Shown here one piece after another: positions 26,201 through 59,808 of a stretch of DNA of 64,000 bases (position 1 is its first letter; each line of letters starts with the position of its first letter). Location of the stretch: NCBI GenBank assembly GCA_951394045.1, contig OX595992.1, forward strand, positions 868,001 to 932,000, read 5' to 3'. Under the pieces are notes generated by a model. The model saw only the letters and a list, made by a program, of their open reading frames with translations. It was not told the origin of the DNA and made no database searches. The DNA is from Nitzschia sp. DOCU1. Its lineage: Eukaryota; Bacillariophyta; Bacillariophyceae; Bacillariales; Bacillariaceae. A program made the translations under genes and the position numbers.

Positions 26201-29200
26201 ACATTAATACCGACGGGAAGCTTGGACGTCTGATTGGGAAGGATGCTGCCAAACTGGGCTGCGTGGTTCGTGCTGTGAACGGGGTTGAGATCCACAGCTT
26301 GGAAGAGTTCAGAGACGCCAAGATGAAACAAGTCGTTTGCAGGTTGCATTTGATCTTCTTTGGGGGCACCGATCTAAGTACCGCAACGCCGGCCAGAGGC
26401 CTTCATCGCAGAAACGGCGAGCCGTATGATACCAAGCCGTCCAAAAGGACCCCCCAGGTGCGTCAGGTGTCCAAGGGGGGCCAAGCTGAAAAATCCGATA
26501 GTTCAGCTGCCGCCCCGGCTACTTCCCCGGGTGAAATCATTGTTTTGGAGGACACCGACTCGGAACCTGAAATTACTCGTCCAAGCTACAATGCGACAAA
26601 TAATCGAACTTCTGTTCTACCTCGGGGTGCCGCATCGAAGGAACATCACGCTCCCCCAACACAGGCGCAACAGAAGATCTGGGGTTCAGGGCTTGACAAA
26701 GAAAAGACGTCAATGAGCGACTCGTGGCATCAAGCGCCTGCAGGTAAGGCGCAACAAAAGACCTGGGGTTCAGGGCTCGACAAAGAAAAGACGTCAACGA
26801 GCGACTCGTGGCATCAAGCGTCCGCAGGTAAGGCGCAACAAACGACCTGGGGCTCAAGGCTCGACAAAGAAAAGACGTCAATGAGCGATTCGTGGCATCA
26901 GGCGCCCGCAGGCAAGGCGCAACAAAGGACCTGGGGCTCAGGGCTCGACAAAGCAAAGACGTCCACGAGCAGCTCTTGGCATCAGGCGCCCGCAGGCAAG
27001 GCACAACAAACGACGTGGGGTTCAGGGCTCAACAAAGAGAAGACGTCAATGAGCGACTCATGGCATCATAATCAACGTTCTTCCGCGCTGGATGGCCCAA
27101 GCCCTCCAGCTTCGCCGGAGCCCGCATCCAACGATCTGGAACAGCGCATACCGAAGAAAAGATCTTTGTCCGCGACTTCTGAGAACAGGTCTTCATTGAT
27201 ATTGCACGGTCCCAATGGCCCTCCTTCTTCCCCCATGGGTAGCGATTCGTGGCATCAAGCGCCCGCAGGCACTGCACAACAAACGACCTGGGATTCAAAG
27301 CTCGACAAAGAAAAGACGCCCATGAGCGATTCGTGGCAGCAGACGCCCGCAGGAAAGGCACAACAAACGACCTGGGGTTCAGGGCTCAACAAAGAGAAGA
27401 CGTCAACGAGCGACTCGTGGCATCAAGCGCCTGCAGGCAAGGCGCAACAAACGACCTGGGGCTCAGGGCTTGACAAAGAAAAGACGGCAATGAGCGATTC
27501 GTGGCATCAGGCGCCCGCAGGAAAGGCACAACAAACGACCTGGGGCTCAGGGCTTGACAAAGAAAAGACGGCAATGAGCGATTCGTGGCATCAGGCGCCC
27601 GCAGGCAAGGCACAACAAACGACCTGGGGTTCAGGGCTCAACAAAGAGAAGACGTCAACGAGCGACTCGTGGCATCAGGCGCCCGCAGGTAAGGCGCAAC
27701 AAACGACCTGGGGCTCAGGGCTCGACAAAGAAAAGACGTCAACGAGCGACTCGTGGCATCAACCGTCCGCAGGTAAGGCGCAACAAACGACCTGGGGCTC
27801 AGGGCTCGACAAAGCAAAGACGTCAACGAGCGACTCGTGGCATCAAGCGCCGGCAGGTAAGGCGCAAGAAACGACCTGGGGCTCAGGGCTCGACAAAGAA
27901 AAGACGTCCACGAGCGACTCCTGGCATCAAGCGTCCGCAGGCAAGGCGCAACAAACGACCTGGGGCTCAGGGCTCGACAAAGAAAAGACGTCCACGAGCG
28001 ACTCCTGGCATCAAGCGTCCGCAGGCAAGGCGCAACAAACGACCTGGGGCTCAGGGCTCGACAAAGAAAAGACGTCCACGAGCGACTCCTGGCATCAAGC
28101 GTCCGCAGGCAAGGCGCAACAAACGACCTGGGGCTCAGGGCTCGCCAAAGAAAAGACGTCCATGAGCGACTCATGGCATCAGGCGTCCGCAGGCAAGGCA
28201 CAACAAACGACCGGGGGTTCAGGGCTCAACAAAGAAAAGACGTCTACGAGCGACTCGTGGCATCAAGCGCCTGCAGCTAAGGCGCAACAAACGACCTGGG
28301 GCTCAGGGCTCGACAGAGCAAAGACGTCAACGAGCGACTCATGGCATCAGGCGCCCGCAGGCAAGGCACAACAAACGACCTGGGGTTCAGGGCTCAACAA
28401 AGAAAAGACGTCAACGAGCGACTCATGGCATCAGAATCAACGTACTTCCGCGCTGGATGGCGCAAGCCCTCCAGCTTCGCCAGAGCCCGCGTCCAACGAT
28501 CAGGTACAGCGCATACCAAAGAAAAGATCTTTGTCCGTGACTTCTGAGAACAGTTCTTCCTTGATATTGCACGGTCCCAATGACCCTCCTTCGCCCCCCA
28601 TGGGCAAGAGTAAGGCTATTCTTCTGGGGACCAAGAAACTTCGTCGTGTGGGACCTGCTACCGGTAGCCCGCAAGCGTTCAAACCCCTTAAAACTTCTGT
28701 TTTTTCGAGCCTGCTCAAATCGATCACGAAATCCGACGATTTCGATCAATCGTTTGATTCGACGAAACCGCTGGGAGCATTCTTTGTCACTGAATCGTTG
28801 GACTCTGGGGCGAAGGCGTGCAAAGTTCGATCGATCTACGTCGGTGGTCAGATCGGCTGCGATAATCGCATCAAACCAGGTGAGCTTTTATGCTGTGTTG
28901 TCTGCATGAACCGAAGCGATTATTGGACTCTCAAAGTGACCTTGCTTCCTCCCGTTGCCATTTAGGTTCGATCGTAGATTCCGTTGTTATTGGAACTAGT
29001 CGCCAACCCGTTCGGGGTCATAGGGAGCTCTCCAAATTCTACGAGAAAGCAAGAAAAGCCAAGGGAAAGCTAACGCTGGCCTTCAAAACACCCCAAACAG
29101 TAAACAATGATGTCAATATGTTGGTGGACAAAACTTGGACATTTGATGGAAAGTGGGAAGGCACGTCCGAGGATGGATGGCCTGGAGGGGCTGTTGTAGC

Positions 29201-44415: not shown

Positions 44416-45459
44416 ATAACGAAATGCTTTCCGATCTGAGCAGGATCCCGTCCCAGTCTTTTTTTCTCTGAACACATTACTCTAGACAACCAATTTTCCA
44501 AACGCACGTGGTTGGTGCGCGCCATACTTTCTTTCATTTTTCACCTCTTGAGGATACCATTCGAATCTCGCGACAGAACTTGATAGTCGAATGTCAGGGC
44601 TTGTATCGTTGCACCCTCCCAAGCAAACCCCAATGTAGGCTTGCTGCAGGAACGGTATCTCCTCACAGCTGCATGTAGCTCCGAAATCTTACCTCGTGTA
44701 CACAATACTGCTGCTCATGTAGAATTGTGATTTGTTGCTAGTATGAACAACTCCGACGGAAACCATCAATAACAGCAGCTCTACTTAAGAAGATAGCCGG
44801 GTACTATTGTCATTCGAACTACAGTACGAATGGAGTTCCAAAAAGTACCCCAAGGGGCGGTTCGGCAAGTGGGAACAAACAAGTGCAGTACAGGTACCTT
44901 AGGCAGGTCAGTCGCACCCGGGAGTCGAACATACAACTGACTACTCTAGTAGAGTAGAGAATCGATTGTACACAAAAAGCGAGAATGTACACCGTTCTTT
45001 CGAGTTTCCCCCGCTAGTAGCAACTTTTCGATGATTTGGCTTCTCTAGCTGGTAGTCGAGTACACTGCCACGTTGCCCTGCCCCTATGTGTTGCATCGTC
45101 TTGTTGAGTGTAGTGACGGATCGTCAACTTCACTACGTGCGCAGAGGGGGGCAGAGGGGAGACTACCTGGTACATACAGCGCCCGAGACACTGCTGAAAA
45201 GGCTTGATGCCTCAGCTAGTATCATAGCTCACCCGTCCTCCAGCAGTCCATCATTCATATGATACGTACTATGTCACGGTATCATAGTTGTATATACAAT
45301 TCTTTTTAAGTACCAAACTTTTAAGCGAATATTTGGCGACCGAAGCCCCTACCCACCACTCCATCTAGTCCTCGATTGCCACTCACCCTTCGGTCATCCT
45401 CAGGGGGTGTGTCACGTCCCCACATTCCTACCCCAACCAAGCAACGTCACCTTTGAGCA
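44416..45459. other. Spacer before the mobile block
   Basis: These 1044 bp carry no supported gene. They hold a short palindrome CTACTCT-AGT-AGAGTAG at 44941-44957, nearby direct TGTACAC copies (about 44967 and 44989), and direct GTATCATAG copies (about 45219 and 45280). The left end of the mobile element should lie in this stretch, but no terminal repeat was identified. Confidence 0.45.
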
Positions 45460-48021
45460 ATGGATGGTCAGATTGCCTTTTCTGACTCCTCGTTAGCCAA
45501 CCCTCCACAATTTTCCAAGAGTTCCAACATGCCACCTTCCAACCTACCCAATCCAGCTCCAGACCCGGCACTATGGCAGGATACTTCATTTCACTTCTCA
45601 CTAGATGCCCGCTGCATGGATAGGTTCATCAACCGATACCTAGGACAAAAGGTGATTGATGGGCTAGTCGCCGCCGCCGAAAGATTAAGAATCCAGATCC
45701 CTGATTGCAATATCCTCTGGCTCACCAACCATGCTGGCAGGTACCAGCAATATGCTGATCCAGATGACCGAAAAACACAGGAACAACTTCAACAAGCATG
45801 TTTTGCAGGGTTGTCGACAGAGGAACGGGATACACAGTTCCTGTCCAAATACCACAAGGAGGTGGCTTCTTCCCCTCGCTTTCGTGGTTCCAGTCTCAAG
45901 CCCACAACCACCAATTCCTACGAGGATAAGCTAGGCAAGCTTTGGATGTTCCTAGCAATGTTGGGCGATTACGAGAGTATGTTGATTCTTCTTGCAACAC
46001 CCCCCATTGCATTTATTCCATCCATAAATGCAGACCACCTTAAGGCATATTGCGACCATCGATTTCTGCTAAAGAAGTCCCCACTGTTCTGCCCCAATAC
46101 AAGCGATCAACCACTCTGTGATGTTCATGATGTACCAATTCTTGCAGAAGGTGGAACCTTCAACCACCACCGGTTTCAAAGTTTATTTGCGGCTGTCACC
46201 TTTCTATGCACCAAGCACAAGAATGGTGGGAACTACACCCCTCGCTGCGAAAACTGCTTCAACCATTTTATCAACCGTCAACTGACCCCCTGCCAATATC
46301 ACCCAATCCAGAACTTCTGTAACACAGGCAATCCAATTTGCTCTGATGTAGCTAAAATGCTAAGAAAGTGGCTTATGGCCGAGAACAACCGGCGAAACTA
46401 CTGTGTCCGAAAACGTGACGTACTTCTTCCCTCCGATCTTGTGGACATTCACCACCATGTTACCCAGGCTGACTTCCACATCACCCAGTTCCAATTTTAT
46501 GTGATGTTACTCAATGCCCTTGATGGGGCCCTCCGATTTGATGGTCTGCACGACGTATCTTTTCAGGATTTTGAGAAAGACGAACATCGGCAACTTTGGC
46601 AAGTCAATAGTCACTGTGGAATTAAGTACCTGGTTCAAGGTGTAAAGGAGAAAAACGACAACCAGGTTCACCTTTACAAAATTTCCTTTAAAGATGACTT
46701 TCCCGAGCAATGCTATCTCCGCCATCTCCTTATTTTCATTCACTGTGCAACTCATGACTCAGGTCACGTTTTCCGACGTCACGTTTTTGCACATCCAGGC
46801 AACCCGGCACCGGGCAACGTTGACAATGAACCACCCATAGGGGACGACCACCCTGTGCCTCATCAATCATTCCACAACTGGATCTGCTCACGTCTCCGCC
46901 TAAACTGCCGCCACACTCTCAAACCTGGCCTGCTGAAGTGGGGCACTCATTCCCTAAGGCGTACCTTTTATTTCTTCTGGGCACTGGGTGGTGGCGAGTT
47001 CGAAGCTGCCAAGAGAAACGCTCGCCACAAGGACACTGCTACTGCCCTTGGCTACCAGGCGGACTCTGCAGTCCTAGTTCGGGAAATCCATTCCAACCCC
47101 AAAGCAGCCATTATACAACGAATTTGGCCAGCACAAGAGCGCCTCTTGTGCCAAGGCGGACACTCCCTTATGCGAATTCACCAATTTTCTGCAGACATCC
47201 CAATCGAGCTAGGTGGACTTTCAGAAGCGGCAAGTTATTTTGTTACCAAAATGCTGGGTGTGCCTAGCAACAGCCCCATCTATCGCAATGCGGGGCAGTT
47301 GTGCCAACTTTCCTATACCAGAAAATTTACAGACAACAGGGCTAAAGCCTCATACCTGGAGTGGGTCGAGGAAAGTTTAAACCCAGATCAACGCCAAAAA
47401 GCTCTATCCCTTTTTCACAATGCGGTGGAAGAGGAGGTATCTTTACAATTGCAAGGCAGTTCCCCTGAATCTACTGCTCCAAGTCCTGCAGCTGCACGAG
47501 GTACCATCCAACCATCCCCGACAGATGAACACAAGCCAGCAGCCAGCAATGCCTCCCAAGCAACCACTCCCTCAACACTACCTCCCACGCTACCAGGTTT
47601 CCACTTTACAGGTGTCACTGACCACGGATCAATTATTCCTCTGGAAATACTAGTCAAGGCAGGTACAACCACAACAGGTAGAGTTCAATACAAAGTCAAG
47701 CCTGACATCCTTCCAAGGCTTTCAGGGCACCATGGTGAATTGGTGATCAGGGTTCTGTATAGACTCATGCATGAGGTTGCCAGCATCGCTTTTGACGGTC
47801 AGCAGCCACCTGTACCCTTCGACCTACTCTACGAACAAGGGCGCAAAAAATGTCGACCATCCAGACACATTTTCAAGAAGTACCTCAACGCACTGCACCT
47901 TTGTATCCGAGTTTGTCATTCCAACAATATCAACAGCTTCATTGATGCTAACCCATCTTGGTGTATCAGCAATCCCCCTGTTTGCATCAAATGCTACCCA
48001 CAAGTCCTACCCTCTAGTTAA
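45460..48021 (+). CDS. Tyrosine recombinase, Crypton-like
   Basis: This is an intronless gene of 853 aa. The C-terminal catalytic domain has Arg359 (GALRFDG), Lys396 (GVKEKND), H497-S-L-R500 (THSLRRT), His523 (ARHKDTA) and Tyr532 (TALGYQAD), the R-K-H-R-H-Y set of tyrosine recombinases. The N-terminal half holds many Cys/His pairs (about residues 200-310: CENCFNH, CQYH), perhaps a zinc-binding insertion in the SAM-like core-binding domain. The long C-terminal tail (about 650-853) is Pro/Thr-rich, then folded with more Cys. Eukaryotic elements using only a tyrosine recombinase are Cryptons, which are known in stramenopiles. Length is well above usual Crypton proteins. Transposition through a circular intermediate is expected for the family. 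Confidence 0.8.
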   Translation: MDGQIAFSDSSLANPPQFSKSSNMPPSNLPNPAPDPALWQDTSFHFSLDARCMDRFINRYLGQKVIDGLVAAAERLRIQIPDCNILWLTNHAGRYQQYADPDDRKTQEQLQQACFAGLSTEERDTQFLSKYHKEVASSPRFRGSSLKPTTTNSYEDKLGKLWMFLAMLGDYESMLILLATPPIAFIPSINADHLKAYCDHRFLLKKSPLFCPNTSDQPLCDVHDVPILAEGGTFNHHRFQSLFAAVTFLCTKHKNGGNYTPRCENCFNHFINRQLTPCQYHPIQNFCNTGNPICSDVAKMLRKWLMAENNRRNYCVRKRDVLLPSDLVDIHHHVTQADFHITQFQFYVMLLNALDGALRFDGLHDVSFQDFEKDEHRQLWQVNSHCGIKYLVQGVKEKNDNQVHLYKISFKDDFPEQCYLRHLLIFIHCATHDSGHVFRRHVFAHPGNPAPGNVDNEPPIGDDHPVPHQSFHNWICSRLRLNCRHTLKPGLLKWGTHSLRRTFYFFWALGGGEFEAAKRNARHKDTATALGYQADSAVLVREIHSNPKAAIIQRIWPAQERLLCQGGHSLMRIHQFSADIPIELGGLSEAASYFVTKMLGVPSNSPIYRNAGQLCQLSYTRKFTDNRAKASYLEWVEESLNPDQRQKALSLFHNAVEEEVSLQLQGSSPESTAPSPAAARGTIQPSPTDEHKPAASNASQATTPSTLPPTLPGFHFTGVTDHGSIIPLEILVKAGTTTTGRVQYKVKPDILPRLSGHHGELVIRVLYRLMHEVASIAFDGQQPPVPFDLLYEQGRKKCRPSRHIFKKYLNALHLCIRVCHSNNINSFIDANPSWCISNPPVCIKCYPQVLPSS

Positions 48022-48124
48022 TTCCAGGACCTTGACCTTCCACCCTGTTCCGAGTTTGAACCCCCCCCAACAATTCAACGGAGTACATCATGTAATGAAC
48101 CAAACACACTATAGCAACACAGCA

Positions 48125-49157
48125 GTCCAATCCAATAACAAGTAATGGTCCAACCTTAGTATACCATTTCAACAGGTTGCTATCCACTTTTTAGCAATCT
48201 ATTAGTAGAATTCACTAAGCTAGCTACCAAATAGCACGTTTTTGCCCGTTTCTACGAGCTTTTCCGCCTATCCACACATTTTTGACAACTACCTGACACC
48301 CAAGGGTCAAATCCAATAACGAGTAATGGTCCAACCTTAGTATACCATTTCCACAGGTTGCTATCCACTTTTTAGCAATCTATTAGTAGAATTCACTAAG
48401 CTAGCTACCAAATAGCACGTTTTTGCCCGTTTCTACGAGCTTTTCCGCCTATCCACACATTTTTGACAACTACCTGACACCCAAGGGTCTAATCCAATAA
48501 CGAGTAATGGTCTAACCATAGTATACCATTTCCACAGGTTGCTATCCACTTTTTAGCAATCTATTAGTAGAATTCACTAAGCTAGCTACCAAATAGCACG
48601 TTTTTGCCCGTTTCTACGAGCTTTTCCGCCTATCCACACATTTTTGACAACTACCTGACACCCAAGGGTCTAATCCAATAACGAGTAATGGTCTAACCAT
48701 AGTATACCATTTCAACAGGTTGCTATCCACTTTTTAGCAATCTATTAGTAGAATTCACTAAGCTAGCTACCAAATAGCACGTTTTTGCCCGTTTCTACGA
48801 GCTTTTCCGCCTATCCACACATTTTTGACAACTACCTGACACCCAAGGGTCAAATCCAATAACGAGTAATGGTCCAACCTTAGTATACCATTTCCACAGG
48901 TTGCTATCCACTTTTTAGCAATCTATTAGTAGAATTCACTAAGCTAGCTACCAAATAGCACGTTTTTGCTCGTTTATACGAGCTCTTCCGCCTATCCACA
49001 CATTTTTGACAACTACCTGACACCCAAGGGTCAAATCCAATAACGAGTAATGGTCTAACCTTAGTATACCATTTCAACAGGTTGCTATCCACTTTTTAGC
49101 AATCTATTAGTAGAATTCACTAAGCTAGCTACCAAATAGCACGTTTTTGCCCGTTTC
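48125..49157. repeat. 181 bp tandem array, 5.7 copies
   Basis: Unit starts are at 48125, 48306, 48487, 48668, 48849 and 49030, exactly 181 bp apart. Copies are about 95 percent identical by eye. The array begins about 100 bp after the recombinase stop. The last copy breaks off after CCCGTTTCT, where the 87 bp array starts. No open frame spans it. Confidence 0.95.
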
Positions 49158-49418
49158 TGAGTTGACCAAATGGATTAGTCTTAACGCAAGCTACCCCGTT
49201 GGTCAAAGGCCACCTACCAGTTTGACTGCTAGGATCGCAATTTCTGATTGGACCAAATGGATTCGTCTTAACGCAAGCTACCCCGTTGGTCAAAGGCCAC
49301 CTACCAGTTTGACTGCTAGGATCGCAATTTCTGATTGGACCAAATGGATTCGTCTTAACGCACGCTACCCCGTTGGTCAAAGGCCACCTACCAGTTCGAC
49401 TGCTAGGATCACCATCCA
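49158..49418. repeat. 87 bp tandem array, 3 copies
   Basis: Copies start at 49158, 49245 and 49332. Each contains GGCCACCTACCA (reverse complement TGGTAGGTGGCC) and GACCAAATGGATT. The array abuts the truncated 181 bp unit and precedes the 3' end of the giant minus-strand gene. Confidence 0.95.
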
Positions 49419-49508
49419 TTGTAAATCCAAACAACTACATGGCTAGTAGGATTAACTAAATGCCTAGTAGGACTAACACATATACTAAAACCATTACTGT
49501 TTGGAATC

Positions 49509-52500
49509 CTATACCGGCACAGGCTCCCACTCGGTTGATCCAAAATACTTTACCATGGGTGCACCCTTGTTGGAAAGTCTGAACAATGACTGTCCTATGA
49601 AATACCGGTCAAACTTCTGGCAAAGACGACCATCCCTTGACTCGCAAAGGATATTCTCGACCTCATCCAGGTGAATGGGCCTAGTACCCACCGAAAGGGA
49701 TGTTCTTATGTCCTCTAGGACCTGTGTCATATCCTCTTTCCCTATACCCGCCATCAGAAGGTGGTCGTGCCCCCCGCTCCCCTCCAGTGGGACGAAGACA
49801 CTGCGCAATTGTTTCCGCGCCTTCACGCCAAGTCCCAAGTGAGCATCAGCTTGCACACACAGCATCAGACGGAAACCGCCCAGTTGACACAATATTCTCG
49901 CCTTTATATTTTTGTTGGTGTGCAGCAATGTTGTTGTGACATTTTCCATATTCGGTTCCACGATTTGGTTCATGTTTGACGCAAGTAAACGCAGCTCCTC
50001 CACCACAAAGTCCACCAGTTCCTTTTTGGGATTAACGTCTGTCCCAAAAGTTACCGCAAAATCAATAGCCGCCGGTCCGAATCGTGGGGTCGACCCACCA
50101 ATCATCCGTGCACAGGGTTTCTTGTCCTCGAACAATATGGTTGCCACGCGGTAGTACTCAAAAATAGGGTAGTTAACGTCGAAGTCAGGGTTTCTCAACA
50201 TTTGTTGGCAGACCTGGTGAAAATTCACAAAGCTGTTCTGCCACACCAGGACTAACACCAGCTGGTAGAGACCTGAGACTGGCACTCTCAACTTCGTTTT
50301 GAGTTCCAAAATGTCCGACAAAGCTAGGGACATCCAGAATCCACGACCGATTCCTGTCAGCAGGGTGAAGCTTCCGTCGGTGTCCCATGGAGTCATAGCC
50401 GACAACGAGAAATCGTCCACACAGTACCACCGTGGGATGTTTTTTCCTTGGTACCCGCCTTGGTGTGCCTCCACCCAACGCACGTAAGCCTGGTCCAGAC
50501 TGTTGAGGTAAGTGCTAGCGGCCAGCATGACCTTGTTCACAGCCGATGCCTTGGCTCCGTAGTAATCGCCAATTTTGCGGCGATAGCCCGTGATCAACTT
50601 CAGAGACCAAAGCGAGCCGGTCGCATCCACCAGATTGATCACTTTGACGACAACCCGGTCGTACGAGGGCCTGTGATCGTTGAATTGATCACGGTGTTCC
50701 TCACCCCCCTCTCCAGCAGATAAATTCAACAACTGTAAGGTGACGAACTCCACGTCGGACTTGCCAGAATAAAAATAGTCGGCGAGATGCGACGCATAAT
50801 CCTGATAGCGGCGGTGGTTGATTGTAACCGGTAGCTTGAGACAGTCCGACATTTCTCTCCCCATTGGACACAGTCCATCCAACAGTTGCCCGATGACTTT
50901 TCTCACCAAGTGGTCTTCAGGTTCAGTGTCGGAGAATACCTCGGTGCCGCAAAGCGTCCTTGGCCGAAAGCTCCCATCCGGTAGGGCGTCGTACGCCTGT
51001 CCTCCATTCATTACGTCGATGCGCCGGCCTCCAGATCTTTTCTCCTGTCTACCACCCTTTTTTTTCAGGAAATTGAAAAGACAATCAAGCCCCTTGTACT
51101 GGCTGCCCTCTTCCGGGAAGTGTCGTTTAAATATACTACTTTCCGGGCGTGCCACGTAAAATTCATTGCCCACCATTGCACGGGGGCATTGGTCGCCAAC
51201 AACAATAAGAGGCGCGTCCGAACGTTCGAAGTGTTCGGGAGGACAGTCACCCATGTTTTGATATTGGTGGTTGTATTCGCCCAGTTTGCGTGCAAAATAC
51301 ACCTCCACCGGAGCGTGGTACAGCATAATAATGTCTTCGGTCCGCCTTACCACCAGGCGGTGATGAAGTTTCCTGGTTTCCTCCAATGTTGCAACGCGAA
51401 GGGGTTTACTGTCTTCAAGTGACGGGTCCCCTTGGCAGCTCGGACTTGCAGTCGGGCTCTGGGTGACGGCCCTGGGAGTGGGTCGGTGAGCCACTGACAC
51501 TGCCTTGGTGAGGGCACGGCGGTCCTTATCAAAAAGTGATGGGGCTGCTTGGAGGCTTGCAAGAACAGCGGTGGGCACGGGCAGTTGCCGTCGACTACGC
51601 TCTCCAATCTTGATTTCCACCTCGGTGCTTTGCTTGCGGTAGGACGTAAGACGATTGATAGTCATGGATGACTCTCTCCTCTTATCTAGCTCCATTGTCA
51701 CGGCAAGCCTGACCAACGTTCTCTGAGCTGGCCATTGACGTTCGTCCATTTTGGAGCATGCACGAAGGAAATGTGTCTTCAACTGAACATTCAAGTCTTG
51801 CTTGTATTCGAAGAAAGATTGCGATTTAGACCGCGCAGAGACCTTTTGGCGGATTGTCGCGGGGTCGTCGAGGAGCTCCCTCATCATGGTCTTATTCTCG
51901 ATGATTACATCGTGGGTCGGACACATCATCAGGAGGTCTTGACAGGACTCAAGGACCATACGCTTGGTGGAACAATCCAAAAAAATCAGGGTAAATAGCT
52001 TCTTCATCACATCCTCGTCCTCAAATATCTCAGTACGAAGAACTGGCTCAAAACAACACTGCATCGTCCTCCAGGCTAGCTGGAGAATTTTTTGACGTTC
52101 AACCAGATTCCTCCAAGAAGACAGCTCTGTGAAAAGTTTAGAAACAAGGCGGTCCTTCTCCGAATGTCTGTTGGGACCGGTAATTTTTTTTTTTTTGGGC
52201 AAAGGACCAAGCGTACTGCTATCGGTCACGTCGTCGGTGGCCATGCTGTAGGTTCCTCCTTCGCCTTGGCTCCAGCTGGTGTCGTCGAAATCCTCCTCCT
52301 CGTAGTCGCCCTTTGAGTCTTCGTCGTCGTAGTCGTCTGTGGATTCTTCCTCATCGTCTTCGGATTCCGAATCATTCGCCTCACTCTGGATGGTTGTAGT
52401 ATTACCAGGCCCACCTGCCAATCTAGATACGTGCGAGTTAGCAGGTTTGCCGCCGGCCGTAGCATCCTTGGCACCGATACCCATTTGGTCCGGCACGGTT

Positions 52501-53276
52501 GTAGTGTAAACAGATAATGTTGCGGCGGCCCCGCCTCCTTTGCTGTGTAACACGGATTTGGTCTCTCCCAAATCGGTGGAGGGCGGCGGGAAAAGTTCAT
52601 CACTTTGGAGCACTTTGTAGAGCGACTCCATCATGGTCGCCGCTCGATAATACATCTGCGCCTTGTCGCCGCCAATCAACTTCAGGCAGTTGTGGATGCG
52701 GACGTAGGACACATGTACGTGACCTTGCGCCACCTTAGCCTGCCAGCCACGTAAACGCAGGAAGGTGGCTAACGACATTTTGAGTTCGTTAGAAAATACC
52801 GTGCAGGCGTAAATGCTATCACGGAAAAAAGATTTCTTGCGCTTCTTCGAAAATAGAATAAGACCGAGAGCAACCATGCCCTGTGAGGGCAAATAAGGAC
52901 TTTGTGTCCGATTCATCTCCTTTCGCTTTTTTGTCTCGACGACCTTGGAAACGGCCTGGGTGAGGTTGACATCGTTGACATCACCGCCGTTGGAGAATGC
53001 AACAACATCGTTTCCCAGCGCTGCGGTGAGTAGGTCCATTTCCTCATCCAAAAATAAATTCCTGATCGTCTGACCAGCGACGGTGGGTTGCGTCGGTCCC
53101 GTGGTAAAATCGGGGTCAGGGCGCACAACGGCGTCAAAATTAACCAAGTCGCTTGTCGGCCAATCGATGGTGCCTACCGCCCTACCGAGAACTGTATCTG
53201 CCGTCAAACTATCATCATCTATCAGGGAGACTGATTTGTATTGTTCTTTGAGACGTCGTCTGAGTGTAACTACCAT
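49509..53276 (-). CDS. Giant element protein A, 1255 aa, unknown, with HxD motif
   Basis: This is an intronless gene whose ATG at 53276 gives MVVTLRRRLKEQYKS; the frame extends 48 bp further only by a TTG. An acidic linker lies at about residues 295-340. A segment with EEHRDQFNDH (His861, Asp863) is followed by VVVKVINLVD and TGYRRKIGDYY. This layout resembles the HxD strand of 2OG-Fe(II) dioxygenases, but the distal His and 2OG-binding Arg were not located, so the assignment is tentative. No DDE or recombinase signature was recognised. It is divergent from protein B across 402 bp, suggesting co-expression. It could be a transposase of an unrecognised type or a DNA-modifying accessory protein. 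Confidence 0.75.
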   Translation of the reverse strand: MVVTLRRRLKEQYKSVSLIDDDSLTADTVLGRAVGTIDWPTSDLVNFDAVVRPDPDFTTGPTQPTVAGQTIRNLFLDEEMDLLTAALGNDVVAFSNGGDVNDVNLTQAVSKVVETKKRKEMNRTQSPYLPSQGMVALGLILFSKKRKKSFFRDSIYACTVFSNELKMSLATFLRLRGWQAKVAQGHVHVSYVRIHNCLKLIGGDKAQMYYRAATMMESLYKVLQSDELFPPPSTDLGETKSVLHSKGGGAAATLSVYTTTVPDQMGIGAKDATAGGKPANSHVSRLAGGPGNTTTIQSEANDSESEDDEEESTDDYDDEDSKGDYEEEDFDDTSWSQGEGGTYSMATDDVTDSSTLGPLPKKKKITGPNRHSEKDRLVSKLFTELSSWRNLVERQKILQLAWRTMQCCFEPVLRTEIFEDEDVMKKLFTLIFLDCSTKRMVLESCQDLLMMCPTHDVIIENKTMMRELLDDPATIRQKVSARSKSQSFFEYKQDLNVQLKTHFLRACSKMDERQWPAQRTLVRLAVTMELDKRRESSMTINRLTSYRKQSTEVEIKIGERSRRQLPVPTAVLASLQAAPSLFDKDRRALTKAVSVAHRPTPRAVTQSPTASPSCQGDPSLEDSKPLRVATLEETRKLHHRLVVRRTEDIIMLYHAPVEVYFARKLGEYNHQYQNMGDCPPEHFERSDAPLIVVGDQCPRAMVGNEFYVARPESSIFKRHFPEEGSQYKGLDCLFNFLKKKGGRQEKRSGGRRIDVMNGGQAYDALPDGSFRPRTLCGTEVFSDTEPEDHLVRKVIGQLLDGLCPMGREMSDCLKLPVTINHRRYQDYASHLADYFYSGKSDVEFVTLQLLNLSAGEGGEEHRDQFNDHRPSYDRVVVKVINLVDATGSLWSLKLITGYRRKIGDYYGAKASAVNKVMLAASTYLNSLDQAYVRWVEAHQGGYQGKNIPRWYCVDDFSLSAMTPWDTDGSFTLLTGIGRGFWMSLALSDILELKTKLRVPVSGLYQLVLVLVWQNSFVNFHQVCQQMLRNPDFDVNYPIFEYYRVATILFEDKKPCARMIGGSTPRFGPAAIDFAVTFGTDVNPKKELVDFVVEELRLLASNMNQIVEPNMENVTTTLLHTNKNIKARILCQLGGFRLMLCVQADAHLGLGVKARKQLRSVFVPLEGSGGHDHLLMAGIGKEDMTQVLEDIRTSLSVGTRPIHLDEVENILCESRDGRLCQKFDRYFIGQSLFRLSNKGAPMVKYFGSTEWEPVPV

Positions 53277-53678
53277 CGTATTCGCCTGTAGCTGAAAACG
53301 GTGTGTGCGGAAATTATCGCGCAAATGCGAGACGTAGTGAAAAACAAAAATCTGGGATTTCGGTTTTTCACCATTATTCGCCCTACGCTAAGTTACGCGT
53401 AGAGATTTGTACCAAGTTCAATTGACTGAATCTGAGAATTATGACAGGCAAGTGGACACCGCCGTGCTCTTGCGCGCGTCCGCCCGTGGGGTGGTTTGCT
53501 AAGTAGCCGGTGCTGTTTGGCAGTTGCATGACGAATAAGACTCACCTGGCCATCGAAATATTGTGCACTATCCAGTTTATATTCTAAATTTGTCGAAGGT
53601 GCTCTTATGTACATAAGGAAGTTAGTATTTTGAACGTTGGGAGAATGTGTGCACTCCCCCTGTGGAAAGTTTCATGTG
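53277..53678. other. Divergent promoter region of proteins A and B
   Basis: These 402 bp lie between the two giant genes. They hold no ATG frame that would extend protein B upstream. A lost 5' exon encoding the missing His of its first C48 module could be here but was not found. Confidence 0.45.
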
Positions 53679-56600
53679 ATGTCGCAGTTTGTGGACTGCT
53701 TGTACAACCACCGCTCTGCCCCTTGGCAAATGGTATTTCCAAAGAAAGAGGAGGTGCCCCAACAAGTGAACTCCTGGGATTGTGGCGTTTATGCCATCAT
53801 GATTCTGTTGGAAGTTGCAAGGTCACAACCCATTGGCTGGATTACACCGACCGACGTGGGGAATGCGCGTCAGTACTTTTTGAAACTGATCATTGCATTG
53901 GGTAAGAAAAAACATTGTCAGTTTGATGAAGAAAAGTTGGACATTGACGAGCGGGCTATGTTGGACGTCTACAAGGTCCATTTTGTGCAGCGTGCGGGTG
54001 CTGGAATTGGTGAGGGGGAGACAAAAAAAGGAGCTGCAGGGCGTAGGTCGGGCTATCCACTACGAATCAGGAAGGAAACAATCGCGAAGGACAGTACGAA
54101 AGAGGAGGTAATATTGATAGCAGAAACTCCACCAGATACTCCGCCAAAGAAGCAAAGAAGGAATGCCCTCACTGGTGATGAAGAGAGGGAGGACGATTCA
54201 AAAAAACCACCAGCAAAGCGACGGTCCGACTACCGACTACGCAGCAAGGAGGCAAGCACCATGGTGTCCACACGGAGTGGGGACAAAGCGACTAAGGTCT
54301 CCACCAAGGTACCAAAGAAGGGCCCCACCAAGACGGCAAAGCAGAGGGGCAGGCTGACCAAGAAATCAAAGGCCGCCGCAAAGGAAAACAACGGCGGCAA
54401 AGCCCTGGGACGGGACAACGTTCAAGAAATCGAAGCAGAGCTGGAGGATCCATATTTCGACTCCCCGTCCTTTTCATTGGACTCCTCCATATGCTCATCA
54501 GTTCGCGGATCTTTGAATGCTGACACCGACGACCAGGAATGGAACAAAAAGTGCGCAAGGGCGATGCAACCGTTTGGTGAATTCGGGTTCCAGATTGAGT
54601 TGAAGTCACTGCATTTCCCCCCACTGTTAAAACCAGGAGAAAACTGGGACGAGGCACTGCTCAACACTGGCCTTGGGCTGCTCGCCGCAGTATGCCAGCA
54701 AAAAGAGGAAGGCTTTTATATTTACCCCACAGTTCTATCTGGCGCTTACTCCTTCAAAGAGGGTTATGCTGCCAAGCCAACGGACCTGGGCGGCGCTAAA
54801 GTGGTTTTCATCCCTCTCCAGGTAGACGAACCTACCGAGCACTTTTTCCTCCTCAGAGTGGAAAAAGGGCCCTCCGAATCTGCGTCGGCACAGATGAATG
54901 TGACGTTATTCGAGGCCGTCGTTCGGGAAGACGGGGGTGCACCCAAAACCCTGGAGGAACTCGAGGCGGATGACCCAGACTTCTTTGTAACTGCTCAAGA
55001 GCTAGCAAAGACAGCCACGCGGTGGATTGGTTTGGAAGGAGAAGCCCGGCTGACTGGGTACGAGAACATCGCTTCCGCCCCGACTGATAGTAACAGTTGC
55101 GGTCCGGCCATCTTGCTGAAGCTGAACCAGGAAGTTGGTTGTCCTAATTGGGAGGACTGGCCCTCTGGAGGTGACGCTAGGTGGACCACAAAGGCAAAAG
55201 CGCTTCGGCTTGTCAGCAATGCCCTCCTTCATTTCTGGGACAAGCTAGTGCCAAACGGTGGTGAGGACAGCAACAATTGGGCAGTCTGCAAAGAGATCAG
55301 TCTGAGCCTCCATAGGTTGACCCCCCGATCCTTCATCGGGCTCATCAGCCGACTCAAATGTTCCCCCTGCGTCTGCGTGGAGAAAGTACAATCCCAGTTT
55401 GTCTCGCTAGGTTGCTGCTTCCGCAGAATGCACTCCCAATGCTTTCTTGCGGAATGGACGCAAAGGGGGCAGGAGAGGGCTGGAACTCGGCCATTGTGCA
55501 GTAGCTGCAACGGGCAAATCGAAGAGATCCAGCTCATCAACGAGAATCTTGAGAATGAAATGTCAAAATGGTACCCACCGCCACGGGGCCCTTATGAAGA
55601 GGATTTCAAGGAGTGGCTGGAGGATTTGCAGAAGAAGCCGATGGTGGAGGACCCAATTCTCCCCATCGAAGAATTGCCCCAGGTCGCCCCTCAACTCACT
55701 GCCTCCCCTACGAGCAGCAATATTCTGACCTCGCCAGTGGTCACTTCGAAGACGCCAATAGGGTTAAAAGGGAGCACAGTGCCGGTCCAACAAGAACAGT
55801 TGAGTGTCCATGCCGGTGTGGAGGACGGAGAAGAAGATTCAAAAAAACAATCAGCAGCCAAGGATCAGGGTGAAGAAGATTCAAAAAAACAATCAGCAGC
55901 CAAGGAAGGTGGAGACTGCGAAATGGACGTTGACGTGGCCGAGCCAGGGGAAAATCAGCAAGGCAAGCCTTACCGGGGCAGAACCATGCAGACACTAGAT
56001 GTTGGGAGGAAAGACGGGGAAAAATACCTGGTGTGTTGTTTTTGCCGCAATTTCTTTGGAAAGATCAATGCCGAATTGTCAAAGAACTACAGAAGTGACA
56101 ATGACGCAAGGATCATTTCCTATGTTTCTAATGAGATTGCCTGTTCCCAGCTGAGAAAAAAGAGCGGGTATAAAAGCATGGTCCAACACTTGTGGACATG
56201 TGGCCTTGCGAGGGGTAAAACAAGGGATGATTGGCCAGATTTCTTTGGTCCCTGCTATGGTGGTAAAAAAAGGAAGGGGGAACTGACAGATGCGGAGAAA
56301 AGGAGAACAGAGCCAAACAAAGCCAACAAAGGTCACGAGGGTAGGTGCAAGACCATAGCAGATGTGAACCTGACTGACCTGGTCCTTTGGTGCCCACACT
56401 GCGAGAGGGTTAAAGATGTGAAAAGAAATGTTGTGGAAGCCTTGTGCCCACACTGCCGACTGGATAAGAATGGTAAGAGAAAAGCCAAGGAAGCATTTTA
56501 CCCAAATTGCCCCAAGAATGCATTCAAGAAGGTCGGAGAACATTGGTTGGTTGCTGACCTAGAAATGGAAGCCCATCATTGCATTAGGAAGACTCATGCT

Positions 56601-56735
56601 TGGAAGAGGATGAGGGAGCATGTTCGGGATGATCATGTTATGATGGGAAGGCATGGATTGGAAAAGCATAGTCTGGAGGTGGAAAACTCACTACCACTGT
56701 TCTACCGTCACAAAGACACACCTAGCTTACCATAA
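53679..56735 (+). CDS. Giant element protein B: two C48/Ulp1-like modules, RING-like and BED-like zinc motifs
   Basis: This is an intronless gene of 1018 aa. Module 1 is at the N-terminus: PQQVNSWDCGVYAI supplies the Gln and Cys35 of Ulp1 (C48) proteases, but the His/Asp half is absent, so it is truncated or its exon is missing. A basic linker (KRRSDYRLRSKE) follows. Module 2 is complete in outline: HFFLLRVE (His388), NVTLFEAVV (Glu412 in the Asp position), and DSNSCGPAI (Cys474). Residues 561-610 form a RING/PHD-like cluster (CSPC, CCFRRMHSQC, CSSC). Two copies of EEDSKKQSAAK follow. C786-x2-C...H837-x3-C841 is BED-finger-like. Zinc-ribbon CPHC pairs and a C2H2-like end complete it. Ulp1-type proteases accompany several eukaryotic DNA transposon superfamilies. 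Confidence 0.8.
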   Translation: MSQFVDCLYNHRSAPWQMVFPKKEEVPQQVNSWDCGVYAIMILLEVARSQPIGWITPTDVGNARQYFLKLIIALGKKKHCQFDEEKLDIDERAMLDVYKVHFVQRAGAGIGEGETKKGAAGRRSGYPLRIRKETIAKDSTKEEVILIAETPPDTPPKKQRRNALTGDEEREDDSKKPPAKRRSDYRLRSKEASTMVSTRSGDKATKVSTKVPKKGPTKTAKQRGRLTKKSKAAAKENNGGKALGRDNVQEIEAELEDPYFDSPSFSLDSSICSSVRGSLNADTDDQEWNKKCARAMQPFGEFGFQIELKSLHFPPLLKPGENWDEALLNTGLGLLAAVCQQKEEGFYIYPTVLSGAYSFKEGYAAKPTDLGGAKVVFIPLQVDEPTEHFFLLRVEKGPSESASAQMNVTLFEAVVREDGGAPKTLEELEADDPDFFVTAQELAKTATRWIGLEGEARLTGYENIASAPTDSNSCGPAILLKLNQEVGCPNWEDWPSGGDARWTTKAKALRLVSNALLHFWDKLVPNGGEDSNNWAVCKEISLSLHRLTPRSFIGLISRLKCSPCVCVEKVQSQFVSLGCCFRRMHSQCFLAEWTQRGQERAGTRPLCSSCNGQIEEIQLINENLENEMSKWYPPPRGPYEEDFKEWLEDLQKKPMVEDPILPIEELPQVAPQLTASPTSSNILTSPVVTSKTPIGLKGSTVPVQQEQLSVHAGVEDGEEDSKKQSAAKDQGEEDSKKQSAAKEGGDCEMDVDVAEPGENQQGKPYRGRTMQTLDVGRKDGEKYLVCCFCRNFFGKINAELSKNYRSDNDARIISYVSNEIACSQLRKKSGYKSMVQHLWTCGLARGKTRDDWPDFFGPCYGGKKRKGELTDAEKRRTEPNKANKGHEGRCKTIADVNLTDLVLWCPHCERVKDVKRNVVEALCPHCRLDKNGKRKAKEAFYPNCPKNAFKKVGEHWLVADLEMEAHHCIRKTHAWKRMREHVRDDHVMMGRHGLEKHSLEVENSLPLFYRHKDTPSLP

Positions 56736-57648
56736 TACATTAATAGAGGTCCAAGATTTAGGTAAACATTGACTTAGTTGTCCAGATTCATGAAGGTGCT
56801 TATGTGCCTAACTACCACATCTGAATTGGAATTTAGTGCTCATACAAGTCATATTGGTAGGTGGACTTGAATATTCTGTAATGGGAAGGAAGGGACAAAA
56901 CTGCTCGGTCAAAATCGACTTAAAGTCGAATTGGTCCAATTGGTAGGTGGCCTTAGCCTGGGGTTGGGGCGAAGAAATTTGATTGGTTGCCTTCCAGTCA
57001 AATGAGTCCGATTGCCTTAAAGTCGAATTGGTCCAATTGGTAGGTGGCCTTAGCCTGAGGTCGGAGCGAAGAAATCCAATTGGTTGCCTTATAGTCAAAT
57101 GAGTCGGATTGACTTAAAGTCGAATTGGTCCAATTGGTAGGTGGACTTAGTCTGAGGTCGGAGAGAAGAAATCCAATTGGTTGCCTTCCAGTCGAATGAG
57201 TCCGATTGACTTAAAGTCGAATTGGTCCAATTGGTAGGTGGCCTTAGCCTGGGGTCGGAGCGAAGTCGAAATGGTCCAATTGGTAGGTGATGTTTGCCCG
57301 GGGTCGGAGGGAAAAAATCCAATTGGTTGCCTTACAGTCAAATGAGTCCAATTGGTAGGAGGCCCTCGTTGGGGATGAAAGAGAAGACATTCAACTGGTC
57401 GTACCAGTCTAATTAATTTGGTGAAATTGATCCAATCAGTCAAAATTGGTTTGTGGTCACGTGGGTCGCTTTGGTAGTTTGGGTGGACCTAAGTAGGGAT
57501 GATCAAGGGTTTAAAAAAAATGATGGGCAGGTGGGCATGTGCCCCAACAATGACAAAAACTGGGAGGGCCAAAACGAGTTGGGGAAACGGTGTTACATCA
57601 GTCTAAAGAAGAGATTGGTTTTAAAGAGAAGAAGATTGAAATAAGAAA
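56736..57648. other. Repeat-bearing spacer
   Basis: This 913 bp spacer includes the 97 bp array and an isolated TTGGTAGGTGGACTT copy near 56855. No gene supported. Confidence 0.6.
56919..57306. repeat. 97 bp tandem array, 4 copies plus degenerate tail
   Basis: CTTAAAGTCGAATTGG starts copies at 56919, 57016, 57113 and 57210, exactly 97 bp apart. Each contains CCAATTGGTAGGTGG and most have TGGTAGGTGGCCTTAG. Degenerate fragments continue to about 57370. Confidence 0.93.
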
Positions 57649-58587
57649 ATGTTGGAACCTGGGGAGTTGGTTATGTTGGAAGAAGTCATGGAAGAAACTG
57701 TCAAAAATGATTCCAATGATACGGATGGGCATGCTAAACAGAAGGTAAATGCCCCGTCAGCTGTCCGTTTGAAACCAATAATGGAGGAGCTTTATGCAGA
57801 CATAGACGCATTGGAGATGATTGACCCGCACAGGTCCAGGGCAGTTGAACAACAATTCATTGAAGAGATTAAGGCAATTATTGCTCAGGCTCGTGATAAA
57901 TTACGAAAAGGTGAAGAGACTAAAATTCCAGTGGAAACCACTGACGTTGTGGTGGATGGTAAACAAGGGAGTGGTGAAATGCGCCAGGAGGTTAGCAAAG
58001 AAACGCAAACAAGAGATGACAGTGTTAGCGTAAAAATGGATAAAGTGGAAGAAAGTGAGTGTGCTCATGTTGAGAAAAAAAGGAAGATGAATTACGAGGA
58101 GTGGGAAGCACCGCCGGTGGAAAATGGGGAGTGGTTGGAGGCAGAAGGGTTTGGAGCATTACGTAGGTCCCTGGAGGTGGGAGTCCCGGATGATGTCGAG
58201 GAGGCTGCATTTGTAGAGTGGGATGAAGAGGAAGAGGCCAGGAGGTTGGAGTTTAAACGTAGGGGTAACAGGCTGTGCGAGCAGTGTGGTTCTGACCCAT
58301 GTTGCCTTGACAATTACTCGCGTGGCAAAGATGGGAAGGAAAGAAGGCTTGGACATGACATGATAAGTTTGGGGGAAGGAATGAAGGATAGAGATGGAAT
58401 GAGTAATTTGGAAGTACGCCATAAATTGGAAATTTTTGCGAAGAGCTTCATGAAAAATCTGGTGGACGACAGGTTTAAAGACAAACTTCCAAAGTGCATT
58501 GAGGAAGAAATAAAGAAAAGTTACCCGGAGAGGGGGGTGAATGTGAAGAATACCTTCAAACAAGGGTATATGTATTTCTTGGATTAG
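57649..58587 (+). CDS. Element protein C, 312 aa, Cys-motif orphan
   Basis: This is an intronless, very acidic gene product in its first 200 residues. CEQCGSDPCCLDNY (Cys210, 213, 218, 219) is followed after a spacer by SNLEVRHKLEIFAKSF, LPKCIEEEIKKSYP and NTFKQGYMYF. From memory, a similar C-x2-C...P-C...LP-x-C-[IV] layout recurs in diatom repeat-associated proteins, so this is probably a lineage-specific family carried by mobile DNA. Function unknown. It converges with protein D, 11 bp apart. Confidence 0.65.
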   Translation: MLEPGELVMLEEVMEETVKNDSNDTDGHAKQKVNAPSAVRLKPIMEELYADIDALEMIDPHRSRAVEQQFIEEIKAIIAQARDKLRKGEETKIPVETTDVVVDGKQGSGEMRQEVSKETQTRDDSVSVKMDKVEESECAHVEKKRKMNYEEWEAPPVENGEWLEAEGFGALRRSLEVGVPDDVEEAAFVEWDEEEEARRLEFKRRGNRLCEQCGSDPCCLDNYSRGKDGKERRLGHDMISLGEGMKDRDGMSNLEVRHKLEIFAKSFMKNLVDDRFKDKLPKCIEEEIKKSYPERGVNVKNTFKQGYMYFLD

Positions 58588-58598
58588 TTTAAAAAATC

Positions 58599-59123
58599 TT
58601 AATTTTGTGGTTCCCAGTTGAACTCATTCTCCTCGATGTCAGAAGTGCTAGCAGCAGATGCATGGGTGGTGGTGGAATTGGTAGCAGCAGTATGTCTGGT
58701 GGTAATTTTCCTGGCCTTAGTTCTCTTGCGAATGTGGGGTGTGGCTGATTTGGCTATGGAAAAAAATTGGTCGAGGGAGTGCTGCTTGCCTTTCTTTACT
58801 TCTTTCAATGCTTGACGTTTGACTTTTTTGGCTGCACGTTCTTCGAATTGGTAGGATTCGTATCGTTCCCTGGCCGTTTGCATGGGGGGGAGCTTGTTGA
58901 GGTAGAGGTGGCACTGGGGACAGTGACAGTCTTTGGATTGGTGTTCGATGACAACTCGAGGGTCATAGGTAGGGTCGATTAGCCGGCGGGAGAACTTCAC
59001 TTGGGGTGGACTACTCTCTGGAGATGAGGTCATATTGGGGGATAAGGAGGATATGGTTGTAACGATGAGGATAGGGTAAACAGGCTCGATGAGGGTGGTT
59101 TTTTGGCATGCTCCACACAACAT
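58599..59123 (-). CDS. Element protein D, 174 aa, zinc-type protein with PIP box
   Basis: The ATG at 59123 gives MLCGACQKT; the frame extends a few codons further only by a TTG. A CGAC pair (Cys3, Cys6) and CHCPQCHLYL suggest a bound zinc. A coiled basic helix (RERYESYQFEERAAKKVK) precedes QHSLDQFF (Gln114, Leu117, Phe120, Phe121), an exact match to the PCNA-interacting consensus Q-x2-[ILM]-x2-F-F. The tail is Thr/Ser/Ala-rich and acidic. PCNA or sliding-clamp binding is established for some transposition proteins, so a role coupling the element to replication or repair is reasonable inference. It converges with protein C. Confidence 0.65.
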   Translation of the reverse strand: MLCGACQKTTLIEPVYPILIVTTISSLSPNMTSSPESSPPQVKFSRRLIDPTYDPRVVIEHQSKDCHCPQCHLYLNKLPPMQTARERYESYQFEERAAKKVKRQALKEVKKGKQHSLDQFFSIAKSATPHIRKRTKARKITTRHTAATNSTTTHASAASTSDIEENEFNWEPQN

Positions 59124-59808
59124 TGCAAAATCGAAAATCAATGAGTGGGCGACTGGCCTTTTGTCATTGGTGGTTTGGTGCTAAGGCTATAGCTATTTAG
59201 CCTGATAAGGCCATTTATGAGATGGAAATCGCTGGGGCAATCACCTCCGTGGGGAAAACGAGGTTGGGGAAATCAGTTGTTATCGAGTAAGTAGGGCCAG
59301 GTACCAGTTGATGGATAGGAAATGGTAGCTGGCCCTTGTGTGTCCAGTAAAGACTATCGTAAGAAGGGCCAGATACCAATTGATACATCAAAATTGGTAG
59401 TTGGCCCTTGTGTGTCAGGTAAAGAGGATTCGATCGCCAAGGTTTGGTGATGGATCGCCTTTTGGAAATGAACACATGGTACTAATTCTACATACGTCGA
59501 CTGATAGTAGACGTAGTACTGACTGTCTGTGATATCATCCCGCAAAACCAAGCCCGACGAATGTGAGCCGTTCACAACGTTTACAGTTATTTCGGTATCT
59601 TTTACTATGCTGGATGGAAATTTTGCGCGCGCTAAATATTGTCGCGTTCCAACAACTCGCGCCTATTTTATCAGATCGCACCAACCACAAGAAGCAATTG
59701 TGATCCTCAACGTCGTGAAATACATATCACCCACGAAGCATCAGGTTAGAATCACCGGCCTCTTGCGGGTTATGTTGGTCTTATGCGTCCAATCATTCAG
59801 GGACTACG
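59124..59808. other. Spacer at the right side of the mobile block
   Basis: These 685 bp hold two related copies (about 59293 and 59365, 72 bp apart) with GGGCCAGGTACCAGTTGAT and TGGTAG[CT]TGGCCCTTGTG. They are followed by an imperfect palindromic stretch near 59490-59515. The right end of the element probably lies here. Confidence 0.5.
59293..59430. repeat. 72 bp direct repeat, 2 copies
   Basis: Two diverged copies start at 59293 and 59365. Both contain a GGTAG[CT]TGGCC core related to the motif in the 87 and 97 bp arrays. Confidence 0.75.

Follow-up and report, generated by a model that had tools for sequence, protein, structure and literature searches.

We report that a 64,000-nucleotide stretch of the Nitzschia sp. 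DOCU1 genome (contig OX595992.1, positions 868,001 to 932,000; C8:868001-932000 in our contig numbering, hereafter the window) holds a 14,233-bp element, at window positions 45287-59519, which we read with good but not full confidence as a Crypton-like transposon that moves as one unit and in which a tyrosine recombinase (YR) replaces a DDE transposase on a partly conserved chassis. The element sits between an AMP-deaminase gene and an open reading frame (ORF) starting at 59809. The light-harvesting family PF00504 has 63 matches in this genome, which indicates a photosynthetic host. An earlier reading made from the letters of the window alone (the sequence-only reading) had placed one large composite element at 45460..59430. 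The block is real, whereas its limits had to be moved to 45287 and 59519 once copies were compared. The five long uninterrupted ORFs (853, 1255, 1018, 312, and 174 amino acids [aa]) and the tandem arrays (periods of 181, 87, 97, 49, and 72 bp) lie where that reading had put them.

DNA searches of the same genome (52.08 Mb, 63 contigs) with three pieces of the block, a check that had been proposed with the sequence-only reading, revealed five further long copies with 95-100% identity at C7:2.02 Mb, C3:2.89 Mb, C4:1.96 Mb, C1:2.67 Mb, and C1:2.73 Mb. These are about 14.9-15.8 kb long, and the six long copies together span 14.2-15.8 kb. A seventh copy, at C5:596 kb (C5:594500-599500), consists of the left 1.5 kb and the right end only; internally deleted and with both ends kept, it is a natural non-autonomous derivative. 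All seven copies, which we call family A and which are spread over six contigs, start at the same base and stop at the same base when aligned, and the sequence beyond is unrelated on both sides. Whole-unit copies with common ends in unrelated surroundings show that the block is a single mobile element and no chance cluster of genes, as the sequence-only reading had supposed; the finding of whole-unit copies in the same genome also excludes single-copy synteny, which that reading had named as a point that would speak against it. Duplication of an ordinary chromosomal segment could likewise yield copies that are up to 99.9% identical across kilobases, as we observed, but it is at odds with seven copies that stop at the same two bases in unrelated surroundings on six contigs, and we assign it next to no probability.

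We then asked of each gene in how many long copies it is open over its full or nearly full length. This was the case for the YR gene in 5/6, for the gene of the 1255-aa protein (the giant protein) in 4/6, for the 312-aa gene in 6/6, and for the 174-aa gene in 5/6 long copies, and no gene of the five is open in fewer than three copies. The remaining gene, which encodes a C48 peptidase/zinc-motif protein, reads without interruption in three copies, has one stop in a fourth, and is truncated in the window; in the C1:2.73-Mb copy, the reading is without a central part. About 1.12 kb that is found in the five other long copies, containing the beginning of the C48 gene along with a 163-bp array, is absent from the window copy at 53666-53669. 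Since the five other long copies have this piece and 4 bp are common to both sides of the junction, the simplest reading is that the window copy lost it, and with it the 5' part of the C48 gene, by deletion.

The ends of the element are of the kind described for Cryptons: short terminal direct repeats, with neither an inverted repeat nor a target duplication of fixed length, in 7/7 copies. The tips carry no terminal inverted repeat and instead a 7-bp imperfect direct repeat. The flanking triplets match in 0/7 copies, and the last two flanking bases match in one of the seven (C7, CG/CG). Whereas the left 7-bp core does not vary (Table 1), the right core reads RTMGTAY, with only bases 1, 3, and 7 differing among otherwise near-identical copies. 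All seven family A insertions have R-T-A at positions -8 to -6 of the left flank, and the target reads RTA-N5-RTMGTAY in 7/7 copies; for comparison, RTA is found at that place in 2/80 RTNGTAY sites of the window outside the element. The simplest reading is integration by a tyrosine recombinase with a short overlap, such that the element supplies the left core and the target the right one, and this origin of the two cores would explain why there is neither a terminal inverted repeat nor a duplication of fixed length.

Table 1. Features of the element and its target site (window coordinates; aa, amino acids).
Feature	Position	Strand	Remarks
Left half of target site	45279..45286	+	RTA at -8..-6 (here GTA), then 5 not fully conserved bases
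Left element end, 7-bp core GTTGTAT	45287..45293	+	Identical in 7/7 family A copies
Tyrosine recombinase gene, 853 aa	45460..48021	+	R359, K396, H497-x-x-R500, H523, Y532
181-bp tandem array, 5.7 units	48125..49158	.	About 2.1 kb in the C1:2.73-Mb copy
87-bp array with iteron TGGTAGGTGGCCTT	49154..49410	-	3 exact copies, at 49206-49393
Giant protein gene, 1255 aa	49509..53276	-	HxDxxNDxR invariant in three members
Deletion scar of the window copy (simplest reading)	53666-53669	.	4 bp common to both sides
C48 (Ulp1-type) peptidase/zinc-motif gene, 5'-truncated, 1018 aa	53679..56735	+	PF02902
97/49-bp array with iteron TGGTAGGTGGCCTT	56917..57313	+	3 exact copies, at 56941-57245
312-aa protein gene	57649..58587	+	C-terminal part dispersed in genome
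174-aa protein gene	58599..59123	-	PIP box QHSLDQFF, residues 114-121
72-bp subterminal array, iteron-like sites	59287..59425	.	2-3 mismatches, paired in opposite orientation
Right element end, 7-bp core GTAGTAC	59513..59519	+	RTMGTAY across copies; read as target-derived

The protein encoded next to the left end carries the motif set of the full tyrosine recombinase that the sequence-only reading had announced. We aligned the window YR with that of a second family of the element (family B, below), a paralog at C4:2.008 Mb (34%), and a metagenome protein (34%). The motif's first arginine and its lysine are kept in 4/4 sequences, and H-x-x-R, the second histidine, and the tyrosine in the 3/3 that cover this region; the spacing of H523 and Y532 fits YRs. 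In a protein database search, the YR found one JGI metagenome protein at 35% identity, and a PDB search gave nothing meaningful. DIRS and Ngaro retroelements have a reverse transcriptase together with a YR, unlike this element, whose five window proteins matched no reverse transcriptase family (Pfam, E ≤ 1). At the same threshold the YR protein showed no GCR1_C domain, which is found in CryptonF, and no Pfam match in the element pointed to a DUF3435-type captain YR, the mark of Starship.

Family B, located at C5:2.79-2.81 Mb, matches family A in all five genes, their order, and their orientation. Identity between the two families is 58% for the YR, 51% for the giant protein, 35% for the C48 protein, 83% for the 312-aa protein, and 84-86% for the 174-aa protein. 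For the YR, the proportion of nonsynonymous differences (pN) is 0.29 against 0.78 for synonymous ones (pS), and for the YR, giant, and C48 genes taken together pN is 0.29-0.45 against a saturated pS of 0.78-0.84. The corresponding rates for the 312-aa and 174-aa genes are dN 0.07-0.09 and dS 0.32-0.52. The two right-hand genes have diverged far less (dS 0.3-0.5) than the three to their left, where synonymous differences are saturated, so that the right-hand part of the element was probably exchanged between families A and B at a later time.

A common iteron links several of the arrays. It occurs in the 87-bp and the 97/49-bp arrays, with its orientation at the 56917 array inverted relative to that at the 49154 array, and paired variants are found at 59293-59408 near the right end. 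Allowing up to 3 mismatches, we counted 24 sites in the window, compared with 4.2 expected. Both families have an array of 181-183 bp between the YR and giant genes, without a detectable sequence match between them, and judged by eye each family has its own motif repeated in several arrays. The iterons look like putative binding sites of an element protein.

Elsewhere in the genome, the family of the 1255-aa protein is a convergent neighbor of Plavaka-type DDE transposases. When searched against its own genome, the giant protein gave at least 47 matches (37 of 66 candidates scored); of the matches listed, nine fall in families A and B, and most others have no YR match nearby. At C8:1812500-1825349, a giant relative lies tail-to-tail with a 1236-aa protein that matches PF18759, the Plavaka transposase family, above the cut-off. 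This Plavaka-type element with its convergent giant gene occurs at five places with 97-100% protein identity (C8, C11 twice, C3, and C9), and the C8 copy has, beyond the giant gene, a divergent 450-aa ORF without a Pfam match. In the whole genome, PF18759 has 10 matches, 8 of them above the cut-off, and the 1236-aa protein has 45. Merging the matches by hand gave 25 Plavaka-like loci and, outside families A and B, 29 loci for the giant protein and 10 for the 174-aa protein. A giant gene was found within 1 kb at 11/25 Plavaka-like loci, in all 11 cases downstream and on the opposite strand; these 11 include 8/8 of the loci above the PF18759 cut-off, and the other 14 loci have no giant within 1 kb. 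Random placement produced a mean of 0.11 such pairs and a maximum of 3 in 20,000 trials, a calculation that ignores the relatedness of copies.

The 174-aa protein, too, has relatives near Plavaka-like loci, although weaker ones. At five other Plavaka-like loci, with no convergent giant detected, 174-aa relatives lie 7-10 kb downstream on the opposite strand, where 0.13 pairs would be expected within 11 kb (maximum 4 in 20,000 trials, copy relatedness again ignored). The other 5/10 174-aa relatives have no such Plavaka-like neighbor. In the window element the order is YR, convergent giant gene, and, about 10.6 kb downstream on the opposite strand, the 174-aa gene. Both kinds of Plavaka locus have a layout like this one, the YR here standing where they have the transposase.

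A rival reading is that the element is a Plavaka-type transposon that has lost its own DDE gene and is moved in trans by Plavaka transposases, the YR being a passenger. The giant gene does belong to a Plavaka-associated family, and long Plavaka-type ORFs are present in the same genome. However, fungal Plavaka elements have inverted ends (TGT..ACA or CATCA..TGATG) and 2-3-bp duplications (PMC12730594; this and the other papers cited here were available in part, and our statements about them apply to those parts). Both are absent from the element: the tips are not inverted, a 3-bp duplication is seen in 0/7 copies, and a 2-bp match in 1/7. The core repeats behave as for a YR, and the YR gene itself is open in 5/6 long copies with pN well below pS. 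We therefore consider movement in trans improbable.

Several observations weigh against a YR transposon built on a Plavaka-type chassis. The YR protein matches no Pfam family at E ≤ 1 and no PHROGs profile, and an AlphaFold model of its core with one homolog was of low confidence (pLDDT 32, pTM 0.20). Given that no profile matches and the model is of low confidence, the YR assignment rests on the motif, its spacing, and the ends of the element. The giant protein has no known domain in Pfam or PHROGs, and the model of its C-terminal 543 residues was also of low confidence (pLDDT 32, pTM 0.23). With respect to the ends, there is an 18-bp inverted match (15/18) between window positions 45333-45350 and about 59423-59440, that is, 46 and 79 bp inside the two ends; it is the sole inverted match reported and possibly represents binding sites. 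In family B the left core is CTTGTAT, the RTA at -8 is missing in 1/2 left flanks, and the right end was not found. With respect to the association with Plavaka, 5/11 giant-Plavaka loci are copies of one element with 97-100% identity, so that about seven distinct lineages stand behind the 11. Similarity to the 1236-aa query is weak (24-28% identity) at the five loci near 174-aa relatives; PF18759 scores below its cut-off at two of these and has no match at three. None of the five is among the 11 giant-associated loci, and they may be copies of one family. Finally, within 20 kb of the distant YRs at C4:2007899 and C10:2266879 there is no match to the giant, Plavaka, or 174-aa proteins, which means that the partnership is not general for this YR lineage: the lineage exists also without the Plavaka-type chassis.

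Distant YRs without a giant gene would also be expected if a Crypton-like element had captured a Plavaka gene block by nested insertion, with the captured genes irrelevant to movement. In addition, the giant and C48 genes are flanked as a pair by the same iteron in inverted orientation, which could be the subterminal remains of an inner element. Three results argue against nested capture: all five genes are kept in order in family B, with the YR, giant, and C48 proteins at 35-58% identity and pN < pS; iteron-like sites also occur near the outer right end; and the genes are arranged much as at Plavaka loci, the YR occupying the position of the transposase. Nested capture is in our view rather unlikely. 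The sequence-only reading had considered a Crypton-like element hit by a second one; the YR-type ends agree with its first half, but the layout is like that of a Plavaka element whose transposase slot is occupied by a YR, which is better explained by a fusion or swap than by one element simply inserted into another.

A bolder reading is that eukaryotic DNA transposons of this lineage have a conserved accessory chassis, comprising the giant protein and perhaps the C48/zinc protein, the PIP-box protein of 174 aa, and the iterons, on which the recombinase is exchangeable, some families using a Plavaka DDE transposase and others a Crypton-type YR. We put this forward tentatively, as a possibility somewhat short of an even chance, and rate it lower because the loci near 174-aa relatives match Plavaka weakly. 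The results speak for a real YR transposon of composite type; they allow the exchangeable-recombinase reading and in part favor it, while it is unproven. If true, two integration reactions with unrelated chemistry would both rely on the accessory proteins for targeting, for building the complex, and for coupling to replication.

Among the accessory proteins, the giant protein is the one that the sequence-only reading had listed as a 1255-aa HxD protein without a recognized transposase signature. The HxD motif held up, being invariant in 3/3 aligned members, as are H1170 and H1172, while profile searches assigned no function. No protein database match was obtained among 7,990 candidates scored with the single sequence or 7,989 with the three-member alignment, and the PDB search returned nothing meaningful. 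A match to Rpc31 (residues 286-332) was rejected as an acidic stretch below the Pfam cut-off. Since some fungal Plavaka elements carry TET/JBP genes (PMC12730594), a TET/JBP-like enzyme is a tempting candidate, with the HxD motif as the only feature behind it; the TET/JBP profile had no match in the element proteins.

The C48 gene had been described as coding for a double C48-like protein with RING-like and BED-like motifs. One C48 domain was recovered (PF02902, E 1.7e-4 in the window copy and 2.2e-10 in the fuller C7 reading), and the BED-like C-x2-C...H...C residues are conserved in both families, but the second C48-like domain and the RING-like motif had no Pfam match. The central segment that would contain them is variable, as it is absent from the family B protein and, roughly, from the C1:2.73-Mb copy. 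In another copy, the gene's longer reading extends to 1198 aa. Of the peptidase, the window ORF retains the Gln/Cys portion and is without the His/Asp portion, residues that are catalytic in C48 peptidases. In the PDB search, the protein gave weak SENP matches (best E 0.027). A fragment at C11:2262249-2262588 is 89% identical to part of this protein and lies about 4 kb from a Plavaka-type gene (C11:2255006-2258425).

For the 312-aa protein, residues about 192-309 have 49 weaker matches (29-36% identity) dispersed in the genome, and this C-terminal part is a possible accessory family of other transposons. The PCNA-type binding motif noted by the sequence-only reading was found in the 174-aa protein. 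Family B has exactly the same box, and a broken locus that is more distantly related has QHSLDTFF; in the eight most distant relatives, the matches end just past the box, at residue 122 in seven and 123 in one. The protein may bind PCNA through this PIP box. Binding of transposases to the sliding clamp is known from bacteria (PMC4549789), and an interplay between transposons and host replication has been described (PMC5371812); for a PIP box in connection with DNA transposons, we found no paper in the openly licensed literature.

We propose the following mechanism, of which the ends and the target pattern are observed and the circular intermediate and the YR enzyme activity are inferred. The YR, having taken the place of the DDE transposase on the partly conserved chassis, would recombine the 7-bp core at the joined element ends with a chromosomal RTA-N5-RTMGTAY site. 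The giant and zinc/C48 proteins may bind the iterons and assemble or protect the DNA complex, and the C48 peptidase could free silencing or repair factors of SUMO or a similar modifier. The PIP-box protein would tie mobilization to PCNA at replication forks, which would allow a conservative recombinase to gain copies. The presence of this gene raises the question of how conservative YR transposons multiply, possibly through replication coupling.

Size, dense uninterrupted genes, and YR integration are shared with endogenous viruses and virus-like elements such as virophages and polinton-like viruses (PMC12220804, PMC7805220), which could carry a YR as integrase. Against a viral origin, the five proteins have no Pfam match to a capsid, packaging ATPase, or polymerase, scans of IMG/VR with the giant and YR proteins found no relative, and PHROGs, which covers viruses of bacteria and archaea only, gave nothing telling. 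We regard a viral origin as very improbable.

The sequence-only reading knew of no described superfamily with this gene set. Parts of the set are known, namely a YR with C48 (PMC3212892) and clusters of Plavaka with YRs (PMC11244446), and the statement therefore stands only in part. Kojima and Jurka (2011) described Cryptons of oomycetes and a diatom that end in direct repeats of 5-6 bp and in some cases encode a C48 peptidase (PMC3212892). Our element is like CryptonS and oomycete CryptonF in its YR, its short terminal direct repeats (5-6 bp there, 7 bp and imperfect here), and its C48 domain. It differs from them in the giant protein, the PIP-box protein, and the internal arrays, which the available part of that paper does not mention; it also differs from CryptonS in its ends, the majority of termini there being TATGG, and from CryptonF in having no GCR1_C (PMC3212892). 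With Plavaka (PF18759; Kojima 2025, PMC12730594), it shares a giant protein family that in this genome is tail-to-tail with the transposase, as the giant is with the YR here; it differs in lacking PF18759, which has no match in the five window proteins and 0/10 of its genome matches inside the element, as well as the TGT..ACA or CATCA..TGATG ends and the 2-3-bp duplication. The "Plavaka giant repeats" of Amoebidium are intron-poor clusters of unclear origin with a Plavaka transposase and many tyrosine recombinases (PMC11244446). There, a single region of up to 50 kb contains both enzymes, and the available text gives no ends, whereas here a YR alone occupies the transposase slot of a unit with defined ends; this comparison is by description only. 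In the openly licensed literature, as far as it was available, we met no YR element that has defined ends and a gene set of Plavaka type; one paper names both Plavaka and Crypton, in the passages available only as separate families. TET/JBP dioxygenase genes have been passed among transposon superfamilies, Plavaka included, and are a precedent for an accessory gene moving between superfamilies; the available part of that paper names neither Crypton nor tyrosine recombinase (PMC12730594).

The element also bears on how such transposons are grouped. Eukaryotic DNA transposons are classified by their recombinase, and a helper gene of one superfamily combined with the recombinase of another suggests that the enzyme is exchangeable as a module. 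Exchange of the integrase as a module is known in some virus-like elements; on integrase replacement, we found no paper in the openly licensed literature. With six near-identical long copies, exact ends, a readable target, and two enzymes with related helpers in one small algal genome, the system is testable.

Two further loci were noted. A stretch of about 11 kb at C9:167484-178807 combines a Plavaka-type gene with giant fragments and a YR-like match of 38 residues (E 7e-4); the two kinds of element may have met there. In the window itself, a 1899-aa ORF at 23266-28965 has no Pfam match (E ≤ 0.001) and lies in a region with an AT skew of up to 0.40.

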